A stretch of 64,000 nt of DNA from Paraburkholderia sp. FT54 (GTDB lineage: Bacteria > Pseudomonadota > Gammaproteobacteria > Burkholderiales > Burkholderiaceae): assembly GCF_031585635.1 (NCBI RefSeq), contig NZ_CP134195.1, positions 1,736,001-1,800,000 on the forward strand. Direction: 5' to 3'. The first letter of the stretch is position 1. Every line of letters begins with the position of its first letter. Below the pieces are notes generated by a model, which did no database searches, had not been told where the DNA came from, and saw nothing but the letters and a program-made list of their open reading frames with translations. A program made the position numbers and the translations under genes. Of this stretch, positions 18,868-29,118 are shown piece by piece.

Positions 18868-19219
18868 GCCTGTCTCCTATCCGCGAACATCGTTACCGCG
18901 TCGAGCGTTACCGCGTCGAACGCGGATGCGGCGCCCGCGAATCATGCCGTTCGCGCGATGCCTGATCTGATCCCTGCCGCAAGATGCGTGCCGTCGGAGG
19001 CAAGGCCGGCGTGTGGCGACGAGCCGGACCTGGAGCGGCGCAATCGCGGTGGACTGTCACGGCCGGCCCGGCGCTCCCGAGGCGTCGACAGCGGGGAAGA
19101 TCAGGCTCACCCGGGCCTGCGTCTTGCGTCGAGTCAAGCCATAACGGCACGTAATCAGTTAGCAGGCGTTGCATCCTCCGACACGCCGCGCAACGTTTTG
19201 CGGCGCACCGAAACCGACC
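18868..19219. other. Intergenic region with a short direct repeat
   Basis: 352 bases between the divergent ParB-like gene and udgX. CGTTACCGCGTCGA occurs twice in tandem (18891-18904 and 18906-18919). No gene is supported. Confidence 0.4.
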
Positions 19220-19879
19220 ATGGCCGACGACAAACTCAAGCGCCGAACGCGCGGCAGCACGCAGTCCGATCCGGATGTCGAACGCGACCAGCAACCGGCG
19301 ACGTTGGACGAATGCCGCCGCTGCGCGCTGTGGTGCAATGCGACACAGCCGGTGCCCGGCGAAGGGCCGAAGCACGCGGCCATCATGTTGATCGGCGAGC
19401 AGCCGGGGGATGCTGAAGACTTGCAGGGCAGACCGTTCGTCGGACCGGCGGGAGCACTGCTCGACAAAGCGCTCGACGAAGCCGGGCTGGAACGCAAGGA
19501 AGTCTATGTCACGAACGCCGTCAAACATTTCAAGTGGACGCCGCGTGGCAAGCGTCGCATGCACAAGACGCCGGGACAGCGAGAGATCGAAGCATGCGGA
19601 TACTGGCTTGAACAGGAACTCCGGACCACAGGGGCGCACGTGATCGTTGCGTTAGGCGCCACCGCGCTAAAGGCGGTACTGGACGATTCGCACGCCCGGT
19701 TGCAGGACGCGCTCTGCAAAACGATCGAACACGACGAGCGGACGGTGGTTGCGACCTATCATCCGTCGTTCGCATTGCGCGCGCCCGATCCCGCGACGCG
19801 GCAACGCGTGTATGACACGATTGTCGCGGCCCTTCAGGCCGCGCACGAGTTGAGCCGTCAGCGCAAACTGTCCAACTGA
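19220..19879 (+). CDS. udgX: UdgX, heme-like cross-linking uracil-DNA binding protein
   Basis: A 219-residue member of the UdgX branch of the uracil-DNA glycosylase superfamily. The active-site segment GEQPGDAEDLQGRPFVGPAG (residues 59-78) and the defining KRRMH (111-115) are present; in studied UdgX proteins the His of this KRRIH-type loop bonds covalently to the abasic deoxyribose after uracil removal. Cys32, Cys35 and later Cys residues can hold the iron-sulfur cluster. Late HPSF is the usual C-terminal motif. Start ATG 19220 replaces a weaker upstream start at 19169. A second UdgX is fused to DUF4130 at 25489-26964. Confidence 0.9.
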   Translation: MADDKLKRRTRGSTQSDPDVERDQQPATLDECRRCALWCNATQPVPGEGPKHAAIMLIGEQPGDAEDLQGRPFVGPAGALLDKALDEAGLERKEVYVTNAVKHFKWTPRGKRRMHKTPGQREIEACGYWLEQELRTTGAHVIVALGATALKAVLDDSHARLQDALCKTIEHDERTVVATYHPSFALRAPDPATRQRVYDTIVAALQAAHELSRQRKLSN

Positions 19880-25488: not shown

Positions 25489-26964
25489 TCACTGCTGCCG
25501 TTTCGTGACAGCCGCCGTGACGGATTCCGCCAACTCACGCGCCCGGATGAGGGCACTGCTGATCTCGGCCAATAGCTTCTCGCAGTCCGCGTCGTTCTGC
25601 TGCCGTAACGCGAACGACGGATGATAGGTCGCGATGCCCCAGCCGCCTGCCACTCTGAACGGCGCATCGACATAGTCTCTCAGACTGACTTTCCCGCGCA
25701 GCAACGCCGTGAGCGCCGTCGCGCCAAGCGCGACGACCACCGCCGGCCGCACTGCATTCAACTCCCGCTCGAGCCAGTAAGAACACGCTTCGATCTCACG
25801 CTGCCCGGGCGTTTTGTGCAGCCTGCGCTTGCCGCGCGGCTCCCATTTGAAATGCTTCACCGCGTTGGTCAGATAAACCTGCGCGCGCGACAGTCCGGCG
25901 CGCGTGATCGCGGTCTCCAGCAATTGCCCCGCTGGCCCGACAAATGGCTGACCGCTCAGATCTTCCTGATCGCCGGGCTGCTCGCCGATCAGCATGATGC
26001 GCGCGTCGCCTGGCCCTGAACTCCCCACAGCTTGCGTTGCGTTGCGCCACAGGTTGCAACGCCGGCAAGTATCGAGCGACGAGGGCTGCTCGCGGGCGGG
26101 TTGCGCCATCTCCGCTTCGATCGGAATGGTCTTGCCGCCCAGCGCACCGACGCCGCTCGCCTGCGCCACGCGGCGCGCGCCGGTTTTCGCTTCACTGATC
26201 ATCGCGGGAATCAGATGGCCTTCCGGCAGGCCTTTCCAGAAACGTACCGGCATGTGCTGTTCGAGCGCCGCTTCGTTCAGCCGCGCCGGATTGAACGTGC
26301 TGCGGTAGTAGGCGAGCCATAGCGTCCCGGCTTCGTCCGCTGTATCGCCACGATGATCGGCGGGCAGGGCGCGGCGTTGCTCCAGGTGCAGTTGCCGACC
26401 GTCCCAGAAGGCGGCGCCGCGCGGCGTCGTGATCATCCACGTCGAGCGTCCCATGCGCTGCGCAAAGTGTTCCGCAGCCCACGCCAGGACATCATGTTCG
26501 GGCTCGTACCAGGCGACGTATTCGGGCGTCTGCACAGCCGACGCCGACGTCTGCCTGCGAAAGCGCACATAAGCGATCATGTCGTGCCTGGCACGTCGTA
26601 CGCTCCTCGCCATACGATGGAGCCGGGCGCCATCCGCATCTGCCGGCGAGGCAACCGCGCGGTCGCCATGTTGCCAGCGCCACAGCGCCTTGTATAAAAA
26701 CGCCCAGCGATCTGACTCGCGGTATGACGCAGCGTCTCGCAATAGTGTCGCCAGTTCCTTGGAAACATGCACGGTCGCGGCAGTGGGTCGAGGTGCCGCG
26801 CCTGCGGATGTCGCGCCGTAGTCGAACAGCGTCCGGCCTTGCGATGACTCGCGTTCCTGCCCGACACGCCATTCGATCGTCTCGGGCGCGAGGCCTTCGT
26901 CTAAAGCGCCCAGCGACGCGGCGCGCCACGCGGCGAAATGGTCTTCGATAACGATGGAACGCAT
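25489..26964 (-). CDS. DUF4130-UdgX fusion protein
   Basis: A 491-residue two-domain protein. Residues about 85-250 match the DUF4130 domain that accompanies radical-SAM DNA-repair genes (AFLYKALWRW...HDMIAYVRFR...WMITTPRGAAFWDG). Residues about 285-491 are a UdgX domain with CRRCNLW, GEQPGDQEDLSGQPFVGPAG and KRRLH at 379-383, whose His is expected to bond to abasic DNA. The gene lies nine bases downstream of the radical-SAM gene on the same strand and is expected to share its LexA-controlled transcript. It likely recognises or processes damaged DNA bases; the substrate is unknown. Confidence 0.9.
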   Translation of the reverse strand: MRSIVIEDHFAAWRAASLGALDEGLAPETIEWRVGQERESSQGRTLFDYGATSAGAAPRPTAATVHVSKELATLLRDAASYRESDRWAFLYKALWRWQHGDRAVASPADADGARLHRMARSVRRARHDMIAYVRFRRQTSASAVQTPEYVAWYEPEHDVLAWAAEHFAQRMGRSTWMITTPRGAAFWDGRQLHLEQRRALPADHRGDTADEAGTLWLAYYRSTFNPARLNEAALEQHMPVRFWKGLPEGHLIPAMISEAKTGARRVAQASGVGALGGKTIPIEAEMAQPAREQPSSLDTCRRCNLWRNATQAVGSSGPGDARIMLIGEQPGDQEDLSGQPFVGPAGQLLETAITRAGLSRAQVYLTNAVKHFKWEPRGKRRLHKTPGQREIEACSYWLERELNAVRPAVVVALGATALTALLRGKVSLRDYVDAPFRVAGGWGIATYHPSFALRQQNDADCEKLLAEISSALIRARELAESVTAAVTKRQQ

Positions 26965-26973
26965 CGCGAGACT

Positions 26974-28182
26974 TCACAGCAGAGCCAGTTGCACCGGCGG
27001 CGCCAGCACCCGGCGCAATCGCGCCGACGACGCGTCATGCAGCGCCGCGCGATAGTCTTGCGTCACGACAAACGGCTTGATCTTCTCCAGCGGACAACGC
27101 AACCGCACGAGGTCCTCGTAGCGTACACGGCGCGAACGCCGTAACTCGACCAGGCGTTTCGCGTTGCGCATGCCGATGCCCGGCACGCGCGCGATCATGC
27201 GCAGCGGCGCGCGGTTCAGGTCGACGGGAAACTGGTCGCGATGCGCCAACGCCCATGCGAGCTTCGGGTCGATGTCGAGCGAGAGATTGCCAGGTTGTTC
27301 GAACAGGTCCTCCGCACTGAAGCCGTAACCGCGCATCAGGAAATCGGCCTGATACAGCCGATGTTCGCGTAACAACGGCGGCGCCTGAGCCGGCAACGCG
27401 GAAGGACTGTCGGGAATCGGGCTGAAGGCGGAGTAGTACACGCGCTTCAGCTTGTACGCTCCGTACAGCGCCGCGGCGGTCTGCAAGATCGTGCTGTCGT
27501 TCGTCTGATCCGCGCCGACGATCATCTGCGTGCTCTGGCCCGCGGGCGTGAACTTCGGCGCGCTGGCGTCGCTATGCGCCTCTTCCTGCGCGAGACGGAT
27601 CGAGCCCATGGCGAGTTTGATGGTGCGGACGTTTTTCTCCGGTGCGAGCCGCGCGAGGCTGCCCTCGGTGGGCAATTCGATGTTCACGCTCAAACGGTCG
27701 GCATAGCGGCCGGCTTGTGCAATCAACTGCGGATCGGCGTCGGGGATTGTCTTCAGATGAAGATAGCCGCGAAACTGGTGATCCTCACGCAACGACTGAG
27801 CGACGCGCACGAGCTGTTCCATCGTGTAGTTCGATGACCGAATGATTCCGGAACTCAGAAACAGTCCGTCGATGTAGTTGCGCCGGTAGAAATCGAGCGT
27901 CAGTTCGACGACTTCCTCGGGCGTAAAGCGCGCGCGTGGCACGTTACTCGAACGCCGGTTGACACAGTATTGACAGTCGTACAAACAGAAATTGGTGAGC
28001 AGAATTTTCAGCAGCGAGACGCAGCGCCCGTCCGGCGTGAAACTGTGGCAAATGCCTGCGCCGGTGCTGGCGCCCAGTCCGGCAATGCCGCGAGAGCCGC
28101 GCTTGGGCGCGCCACTGCTCGCGCACGACGCATCGTACTTCGCGGCGTCGGCCAATATTTCCAGCTTTCTGAGCAATTCCAC
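26974..28182 (-). CDS. Radical SAM protein of putative DNA modification/repair type
   Basis: A 402-residue radical-SAM enzyme. The cluster motif is FCLYDCQYC (Cys66, Cys70, Cys73), and the start ELLRKLEILADAAKYDASCASSG is characteristic of the family that travels with DUF4130/UdgX. The C-terminal IARVPGIGMRNAKRLVELRRS is a helix-hairpin-helix DNA-binding motif. The start codon is GTG at 28182. A LexA-like box lies 12 bases upstream. The family is named for presumed DNA modification or repair; the reaction is not known. It is first in an operon with the UdgX fusion. Confidence 0.9.
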   Translation of the reverse strand: MELLRKLEILADAAKYDASCASSGAPKRGSRGIAGLGASTGAGICHSFTPDGRCVSLLKILLTNFCLYDCQYCVNRRSSNVPRARFTPEEVVELTLDFYRRNYIDGLFLSSGIIRSSNYTMEQLVRVAQSLREDHQFRGYLHLKTIPDADPQLIAQAGRYADRLSVNIELPTEGSLARLAPEKNVRTIKLAMGSIRLAQEEAHSDASAPKFTPAGQSTQMIVGADQTNDSTILQTAAALYGAYKLKRVYYSAFSPIPDSPSALPAQAPPLLREHRLYQADFLMRGYGFSAEDLFEQPGNLSLDIDPKLAWALAHRDQFPVDLNRAPLRMIARVPGIGMRNAKRLVELRRSRRVRYEDLVRLRCPLEKIKPFVVTQDYRAALHDASSARLRRVLAPPVQLALL

Positions 28183-28512
28183 GTTGCCGCCAGTACTGTA
28201 TGGATGTACAGTATTGTACGTGGGCAGGCGGTCACTGCAAGCGGTTTTTTGAGTGGAGCGGGGTCATTTATGGAGCGTGGCTGGCGAACAGGAATGTCGG
28301 GGCAGAAGCGATCTAACGGGAGTTGAGCTTGTCCGATTGGCGCAGCGTTTGCTCGCAGTCGGACTATAGCTTTGAAAATTTCAATGGCTTTAGAACAAGG
28401 TTGATGTGGAACCTCGCGCAGTCGGGTGGTCTGAACAGATCAGGTACGCGGGTGAGCCCGCACAATGAACGGAGATTCATCTACATGCCGGCTTTATCCG
28501 GTCAGGAACGCC
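28183..28512. other. Divergent intergenic region with SOS box
   Basis: 330 bases between the radical-SAM operon and the 2H phosphoesterase gene. Apart from the LexA-like site at 28194-28213 it holds only short frames; none is supported as a gene. Confidence 0.45.
28194..28213 (-). promoter_or_regulatory. LexA-binding SOS box
   Basis: TACTGTATGGATGTACAGTA matches the CTG-N10-CAG rule of proteobacterial LexA and both outer halves (TACTGTAT and ACAGTA) of the Escherichia coli consensus. It lies 12 bases upstream of the radical-SAM start codon on the reverse strand, so bound LexA would block the promoter of the radical-SAM/UdgX operon. Confidence 0.85.
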
Positions 28513-29118
28513 ATGCCTGAACAACTCTGGTTGCCTGGGCTCGAGGCGCCGCCAACGCCGACAGACGGCCTGTTCTTCGCCGTCTTTCCCGATGCCACGA
28601 CAGCGGCCAGCATCTCGAAGCTCGCGCAACAGCTTTGCGCAGAGACGCGCGCGCGGAGCAAACCGCTTGCGGCGGCCCGTCTGCATGTCACCTTGCTGCA
28701 CTTGGGCAATTTCGCGGGTGGTTTGCCACAGGAGCGAGTCGATGCGGCGATGAAAGCGGCTGCGTCGGTCGCCATGGAGCCGTTCAGCGTCGAATTCGAC
28801 ACTGCCGTCAGCTTCGCGTCGAAGCCGCGACCGGGACCGTTGGTACTGGGCGGAGGCGAGGGCGTCGCTGGCCTGCACAGGCTGCACGACGCCTTGGGCC
28901 TTGCGTTGCGAAATGCCGGTTTGGGGGACCACGCGGCTTCATCCGCGGCGCACTACACGCCGCACGTCACACTGGCGTACGGCATGCCGTGGGCCGCGGC
29001 ACGTCCCGTCGAACCGGTATGCTGGAACGTGCGTGAGTTTGCGTTGATGCACAGTTTGCTTGGGCGTACGCGCCATGTTGCGCTGGCTCGATGGACTTTC
29101 ACGGGCGCGGGTTCATAG
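28513..29118 (+). CDS. thpR: 2'-5' RNA ligase-like 2H phosphoesterase
   Basis: A 201-residue member of the 2H phosphoesterase family, which opens 2',3'-cyclic phosphates or joins RNA ends through 2'-5' bonds. Two HxT motifs are visible: LHVTLLHLG near residue 57 and the second, PHVTLAYG, near residue 155. The start ATG 28513 follows CAGGAA; the upstream ATG at 28465 adds 16 residues without similarity. Length is typical of bacterial ThpR. It is divergent from the SOS operon and could share its control region, but no LexA site oriented to it was found. Confidence 0.85.
   Translation: MPEQLWLPGLEAPPTPTDGLFFAVFPDATTAASISKLAQQLCAETRARSKPLAAARLHVTLLHLGNFAGGLPQERVDAAMKAAASVAMEPFSVEFDTAVSFASKPRPGPLVLGGGEGVAGLHRLHDALGLALRNAGLGDHAASSAAHYTPHVTLAYGMPWAAARPVEPVCWNVREFALMHSLLGRTRHVALARWTFTGAGS

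Follow-up and report, generated by a model that had tools for sequence, protein, structure and literature searches.

The locus described here raises the question of what a radical S-adenosylmethionine (SAM) gene placed behind a LexA-like palindrome does, and with which partner its product works. It lies in a stretch of 64,000 nucleotides from Paraburkholderia sp. FT54 (the window), where the radical-SAM gene is accompanied by a gene for a DUF4130 domain fused to a uracil-DNA glycosylase (UDG) of the UdgX type. An initial annotation of the window had proposed SOS control of this pair and had put the emphasis on UdgX. From the analysis as a whole we concluded that the locus is, on balance, probably a LexA-repressed DNA-damage operon, the core of which would consist of a DNA-binding radical-SAM enzyme and DUF4130. 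A DNA-repair role of the operon is likely.

The identity of both genes was confirmed by family scores that all exceeded the curated cut-offs. The radical-SAM protein scored 549.5 bits against TIGR03916 rSAM_link_UDG (cut-off 343.5), and the fused protein scored 198.4 bits against TIGR03915 (cut-off 112.25) and 235.6 bits against TIGR03914 (cut-off 189.95). The palindrome TACTGTATGGATGTACAGTA was the sole CTGT-N8-ACAG sequence of the window. The eight-base pattern alone was weak, with a shuffle mean of 0.40 and at least one copy in 38 of 100 window shuffles. The full site was the only one in the window within three mismatches of TACTGTATATATATACAGTA and was equalled in none of 100 shuffles, so the 20-base palindrome reported earlier was real. 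It was separated from the radical-SAM GTG at 28182 (minus strand) by 11 bases (28183-28193), rather than by the 12 first given. The evidence is sequence-based, and a divergent gene resembling 2'-5' RNA ligases (28465-29118) lies 251 bases past the box; the palindrome might thus have arisen by chance or belong to that gene. Such an origin is most improbable in view of the shuffles and of the position of the box near the radical-SAM start across families, approximately 7-13 bases away in all 17 measured loci of families f1 and f8.

The genome of 8.65 Mb (five contigs) gave one match to the LexA family, full-length and over the cut-off, and its own lexA promoter carried the same type of box (TACTGTATAAAAATACAGTC, one mismatch to TACTGT-N8-ACAGTA). 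A genome search with this pattern tolerated up to one mismatch among the 12 outer bases; sites differing at more positions, for example any at recA, were outside its scope. It yielded 15 palindromic places, five of them exact. The reversed pattern yielded six, therefore part of the one-mismatch sites are due to chance. The exact sites preceded genes for SRAP, the operon studied here, an AlkB-like 2OG-Fe(II) oxygenase, a second DUF4130-UdgX protein and a 122-aa orphan, while lexA, uvrA, two imuA genes and a DUF2471 gene stood behind one-mismatch sites. No evident SOS gene was found at L007, L013, L014 and L015, and L008 lay near a response-regulator-like frame; these sites may be chance matches.

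Conservation of the palindrome in orthologous loci, which the initial annotation had named as a check, was followed at increasing distances. TIGR03916 matches over the cut-off were present in 13 of 58 genus genomes, in 18 of 300 genomes at the level of the order and in 84 of 398 at that of the phylum; matches below the cut-off (e.g. L030 and L047-L050) were left out of all counts. The Pseudomonadota set comprised 103 loci from distinct genomes, of which 102 were used for operators (L046, with the gene split in two frames, was dropped), and 125 bases upstream were searched. Within the genus, the exact CTGT-N8-ACAG box was recorded at 12 of the 13 full-length loci, the box of the remaining one (L027) being degenerate in one half. 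Across the beta/gamma loci the exact box was present in 32 of 39 (6 of 1134 control windows), and all 54 alphaproteobacterial loci had the exact repeat GAAC/GTTC-N7 typical of that class (2 of 1573 control windows), although the loci are related to each other and these counts are not independent trials. The operator type of the other lineage was found at none of the 39 beta/gamma and none of the 54 alpha loci. The operator was mostly positioned 25-60 bases before the start of the match, and at about -103 in family f88. Two own-genus loci showed decay: the operon copy L027 (G008:C4) combined its degenerate box with a DUF4130 frame interrupted by a stop, and a 14th genome (L030, G025:C80) retained the box but no more than a piece of the radical-SAM gene.

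The lexA promoters of sampled genomes followed the same division. The alpha repeat was exact in 11 of 11, and CTGT-N8-ACAG was exact in 13 of 18 beta/gamma promoters, with one mismatch in the other five. Three f26 genomes, whose LexA is divergent (98-100 bits), had at the radical-SAM gene a variant box similar to that of their own lexA. G318, G348 and G428 lacked both a full-length LexA and a box at the radical-SAM gene. Further loci were taken from named sequences selected with two peptide patterns, of which one spanned Cys45 and His46. The top 80 of at least 593 were used; most came from Bacteroidota, the others from Moraxellaceae and a few further groups. As the query was biased towards Moraxellaceae, they do not represent bacteria as a whole. 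CTAA-N5-TTAG was detected upstream of 9 of these 80 loci (4 of 3420 control windows), and three GGA-N5-TCC sites were detected upstream of 6 (85 of 3420 control windows for a single GGA-N5-TCC). Within the genus, the operator before the radical-SAM gene was thus conserved, and from lineage to lineage it switched type together with LexA. SOS control, as proposed in the initial annotation, is strongly supported at the sequence level by the full-length LexA, the boxed lexA gene and the operator type tracking the LexA of the lineage, and we regard LexA binding and induction of the operon by damage as almost certain.

LexA control of this radical-SAM pair is not new as such, since it has already been predicted for Clostridium and Bacteroidetes (PMC3828012, PMC8565304). 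In Clostridium acetobutylicum, CAC3343-CAC3344 is likewise a predicted LexA-controlled operon, which joins this radical-SAM annotation to a protein of unknown function; it belongs, however, to another phylum with another LexA motif, and the partner was left unassigned in the part of that report concerned (PMC3828012). The COG1573-COG4277 operon is listed among the predicted targets of the non-canonical Bacteroidetes LexA, for which the motifs GGA-N5-TCC and CTAA-N5-TTAG were defined, and the same source cites work in Verrucomicrobia and in Caulobacter (Alphaproteobacteria) on LexA control of this operon (PMC8565304). The radical-SAM family is the same there and the motifs are of SOS type, both of which were found again among the named loci. 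The Bacteroidetes partner, however, is given as a uracil-DNA glycosylase COG in PMC8565304, whereas six Bacteroidota partners read here had only DUF4130 (with one sub-threshold helical match). A misassignment behind the COG1573 label is no more than suspected, as the two species sets differ. In a figure legend of PMC3765255, DUF4130 is associated with both radical-SAM proteins and uracil-DNA glycosylases. A gene of this annotation was reported as upregulated on drying in Acinetobacter Tol 5 (PMC13130816), and the LexA-bound vnz_31145 of Streptomyces (PMC9380542) is comparable here by its annotation 'Radical SAM protein' only. Four genes of the UDG family are named for Caulobacter in the available passages of PMC1839093, which mention no SOS box for them. 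A search by title and abstract found no paper on this operon in Burkholderiales, and the literature searched gave no substrate, activity, phenotype or biochemistry for this radical-SAM family.

The emphasis on UdgX, in contrast, had to be shifted. In the fused protein, Pfam DUF4130 covered residues 85-248 and Pfam UDG residues 317-462, and the UdgX motifs GEQPG, KRRLH (R-loop) and HPS were located at 327, 379 and 448, respectively. DUF4130 adjoined the radical-SAM gene in 101 of the 103 Pseudomonadota loci (it was not seen within 1.4 kb at L114 and L119). The UDG domain was fused to it in 72, stood in another frame in one (L099, scored as separate frames) and was not found in 28; as L040, L112, L113 and L115 run off the end of the stretch, 24 of these 28 DUF4130-only loci are clear. 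Operons with DUF4130 only occurred in families f26, f44, f49, f52, f55, f60 and f95, and exact boxes were kept in f49, f60, f95 and part of f55. Among the 80 named loci, DUF4130 was present in 72 and missing in eight (at L234 owing to the end of the contig), and UDG was found in none. A Pfam scan of six Bacteroidota partner proteins and one from Psychrobacter returned DUF4130 and no UDG. UDG as the conserved partner was ruled out by this domain content.

Where UDG was present, its motifs were largely intact. In an alignment of 61 fused or partner proteins, GEQPG and the R-loop histidine were retained in 41, and 19 had neither, nearly all of them for want of a UDG domain. Arg134, Arg170, Trp216, Arg228, Trp243 and Glu248 of DUF4130 were kept in no fewer than 99 of 101 Pseudomonadota proteins and in no fewer than 71 of 72 other copies linked to the radical-SAM gene; for the pair Arg228 and Glu248 the counts were 100 of 101 in Pseudomonadota, and 72 and 71 of 72, respectively, elsewhere. 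His127 and Glu154 were invariant in the alignment but present in 46 and 44 of 72 named loci, respectively, and were not used as evidence. Both fold searches with the model of the fused protein were filled by the UDG domain, and the DUF4130 fold was not read from them. DUF4130 is, with high probability, an obligate partner of the radical-SAM protein. UDG is missing in many operons, therefore the covalent chemistry of UdgX appears to be an optional addition, and capture of abasic DNA by UdgX is likely to be an accessory cap. An anti-phage defence role was also considered and rejected, as no PADLOC-DB family was matched by the three proteins searched at E 0.01.

A second DUF4130-UdgX gene of the same genome (L155:1894-3399; G000:C2:2163893-2165398) was preceded, at a distance of 55 bases from its start, by an exact LexA box. 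Its product retained GEQPG and had QQRVH as the R-loop, and its DUF4130 domain was degenerate. Counterparts with at least 68 % identity were present in 14 of the 58 genus genomes (a split match in G025 counted), with a CTGT-N8-ACAG box upstream in 14 of 14. No radical-SAM gene was adjacent in the loci read, and nine of the 14 genomes lacked any TIGR03916 match. Arg134 was lost in 12, Arg228 in 11 and Glu248 in all 14 of these proteins, where the gaps at 228 and 248 may in part be an alignment effect. The loss of DUF4130 residues in this paralog, which has no radical-SAM neighbor, is most simply explained if the DUF4130 site is maintained for joint action with the radical-SAM protein. Separately, a stand-alone UdgX was encoded at 19169-19879 of the window (plus strand), about 5.6 kb from the operon; it scored 247.9 bits against TIGR03914, had KRRMH as the R-loop, and no CTGT-N8-ACAG box was found nearby.

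These data bear on a different proposal, in which the operon would be an SOS pathway for uracil and abasic sites centered on UdgX: UdgX would cap abasic sites, and the radical-SAM enzyme would prepare the substrate or release the crosslink. The UDG motifs of the UdgX here are intact, with 42-46 % identity to Mycobacterium smegmatis UdgX in fold matches, and the domain is fused to DUF4130 in 72 of the 103 Pseudomonadota loci. Proteins of the SRAP family crosslink abasic sites, and the SRAP gene and the second DUF4130-UdgX gene carry exact boxes in the same genome. A UDG base-excision system is also described in PMC8565304. Nevertheless, we considered this proposal unlikely, because the box is kept in families f49, f60 and most of f55 where UDG is missing, the named loci have no UDG at all, f55 and f95 each contain loci with and without UDG, and one fused f55 copy (L137) has lost both UdgX motifs. 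The protein here differs from the known UdgX of M. smegmatis (PDB 6ail and others) in that it follows DUF4130 in a fusion and shares its operon with a radical-SAM gene.

The radical-SAM protein was assigned fully to the TIGR03916 rSAM_link_UDG family by score and gene order. It departs from the description of that family in two points, neither of which was met in the literature passages: the fixed partner is DUF4130 and not UDG, and there are three extra invariant cysteines. In an alignment of 65 sequences (at most six loci per family), the CX3CX2C motif (Cys66, Cys70 and Cys73) was kept in all 65. The N-terminal Cys20, Cys45 and Cys54 were invariant in the same 65 Pseudomonadota sequences and in the 80 named loci, 145 of 145 in total, and Cys45 was also present in the 28 named loci that lacked the selecting Cys45-His46 pattern. 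It is fairly probable that these cysteines bind a second iron-sulphur cluster. The N-terminal auxiliary-cluster motif of lipoyl synthase is CX4CX5C; the spacing here was different, C20-x24-C45-x8-C54. A tail resembling a helix-hairpin-helix (about residues 317-363) showed a weak profile likeness to ComEA and RuvA. A profile search of the PDB with the radical-SAM protein gave no relative at E <0.009. The closest solved folds among the 50 matches listed were lipoyl synthase, HydE and biotin synthase, with RlmN and MiaB also among them; lipoyl synthase, biotin synthase and HydE share 11-17 % identity with the protein, which differs by the added tail. Spore photoproduct lyase was not among the fold or profile matches listed, an absence that excludes nothing.

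Two further proposals concern the substrate. The protein might reverse photoproducts directly, as a functional analogue of SplB, with DUF4130 as the recognition subunit. Radical SAM, helix-hairpin-helix and LexA control would suit this role, SplB itself is reported as SOS-regulated in several species (PMC8565304), and the associated radical-SAM proteins were termed SplB-like photolyases in PMC3765255. The fold matches named above, the extra N-terminal cysteines and the separate membership of SplB (COG1533) and COG4277 in the same regulon, as given in PMC8565304, speak against it and make it improbable. Alternatively, the enzyme might modify or repair tRNA or rRNA and be SOS-induced for translation under stress, as RNA is the substrate of several radical-SAM enzymes, and RlmN and MiaB appeared among the fold matches. 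This is more improbable still, since DNA is indicated by the ComEA/RuvA-like tail, by the DNA glycosylase fused to the partner and by the presence of LexA control in several lineages. Action of the operon enzyme on DNA was considered highly probable.

We propose the following sequence of events for the LexA-repressed operon. LexA bound at the box, which separates the promoter region from the start codon, would block transcription. After damage, RecA filaments would trigger the self-cleavage of LexA according to established SOS logic, and both proteins would be made. The radical-SAM protein would be held on DNA by its helix-hairpin-helix tail and would generate a 5'-deoxyadenosyl radical at the CX3CX2C cluster; with the probable second cluster on Cys20, Cys45 and Cys54, it would alter a damaged base or sugar, as its motifs, fold and regulation suggest. 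DUF4130 would be the dedicated partner, which probably holds a flipped or single-stranded lesion through its set of Arg, Trp, Tyr and Glu residues, as synteny and conservation suggest. Where UdgX is fused, as here, it would, judging by its motifs, remove uracil-type bases and cap the abasic site covalently, and many lineages do without it. It is a tentative suggestion that this represents new repair chemistry, in which a two-cluster, helix-hairpin-helix-anchored and DUF4130-dependent radical-SAM enzyme would remove or convert a lesion in a manner unlike spore photoproduct lyase, under SOS control that passed through repeated operator changes, UdgX having been added in some lineages as a cap for the resulting abasic sites.

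Several observations weigh against the LexA-repressed DNA-damage operon as formulated here. Four genomes that have LexA also lacked the operator. The seven beta/gamma loci without an exact box comprised five of f55 (one mismatch), the degenerate L027, and L035 with none. Three f57 genomes had a TTAGTA-type box at lexA that was not seen at the radical-SAM gene. Most of the 80 named loci showed neither published Bacteroidetes motif, and single GGA sites were at chance level. The helix-hairpin-helix reported in the initial annotation was found as an HHH_3 match, but at 21.9 bits it remained below the Pfam cut-off of 27. The residues near Cys20 and Cys45 were modelled at a predicted local distance difference test (pLDDT) score of <50, and the geometry of a cluster was unreadable. 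The radical-SAM enzyme may also have an RNA substrate. As a separate observation, an inverted repeat, GGTCTCATCCAATGAGACC, was located upstream of the operon in the f57 loci L116, L117 and L121 instead of a TTAGTA-type box.

The features of the locus are collected in the table below.

Table. Features of the operon and its upstream region (window positions)
Feature	Position	Strand	Basis
LexA operator (SOS box) TACTGTATGGATGTACAGTA	28194..28213	.	Shuffles, genome pattern search, conserved position in relatives
Possible promoter	28213..28240	-	Inferred from a -10-like TACAAT (28213-28218) touching the box, a 16-base spacer and a weak -35-like TTGCAG (28235-28240)
Radical-SAM protein TIGR03916 (COG4277 type), 402 aa	26974..28182	-	Family score, motifs, radical-SAM barrel, alignments, fold model
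Fused DUF4130/TIGR03915 and UdgX-type UDG protein, 491 aa	25489..26964	-	Family scores, motifs

A gap of 9 bases (26965-26973) separated the two genes, and the nearest relatives of the operon proteins were from Paraburkholderia. The -10-like hexamer matched in at least five of six positions at all 12 own-genus loci having the box and at none of the five tested loci of other genera, and a consensus promoter scan reported no promoter at 28213-28240.

Some other genes with boxes were noted in the genome. The gene for the AlkB-like 2OG-Fe(II) oxygenase (L004:849-1535; G000:C2 near 1427325) has its exact box in front, which suggests that alkylation repair is under LexA control in this genome. The 122-aa protein (L006:1537-1905; G000:C2 near 2177749) starts 17 bases past an exact LexA-type box and matched nothing in Pfam or NCBIfam; by eye it resembles a small frame (L002, 1173-1544, minus) that runs divergently from the SRAP gene. 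The DUF2471 (PF10616) gene (L012:1544-1942; G000:C2 near 6874) lies directly behind the LexA-type box CACTGTATATTTGTACAGTA and is a candidate SOS gene of unknown function.

What is new is the breadth of the LexA control, the DUF4130 core, the extra cysteines and the second LexA-boxed UdgX paralog. The gene pair very probably functions in the DNA-damage response, because the locally right LexA operator is kept in nearly all of a wide sample despite completely differing operator sequences. As the fixed partner, DUF4130, and not the uracil-DNA glycosylase domain, is the gene to study, and the three conserved cysteines lead to the prediction of a second cluster, which can be tested directly. The radical-SAM protein would be one of very few radical-SAM enzymes of DNA repair if DNA is its substrate.

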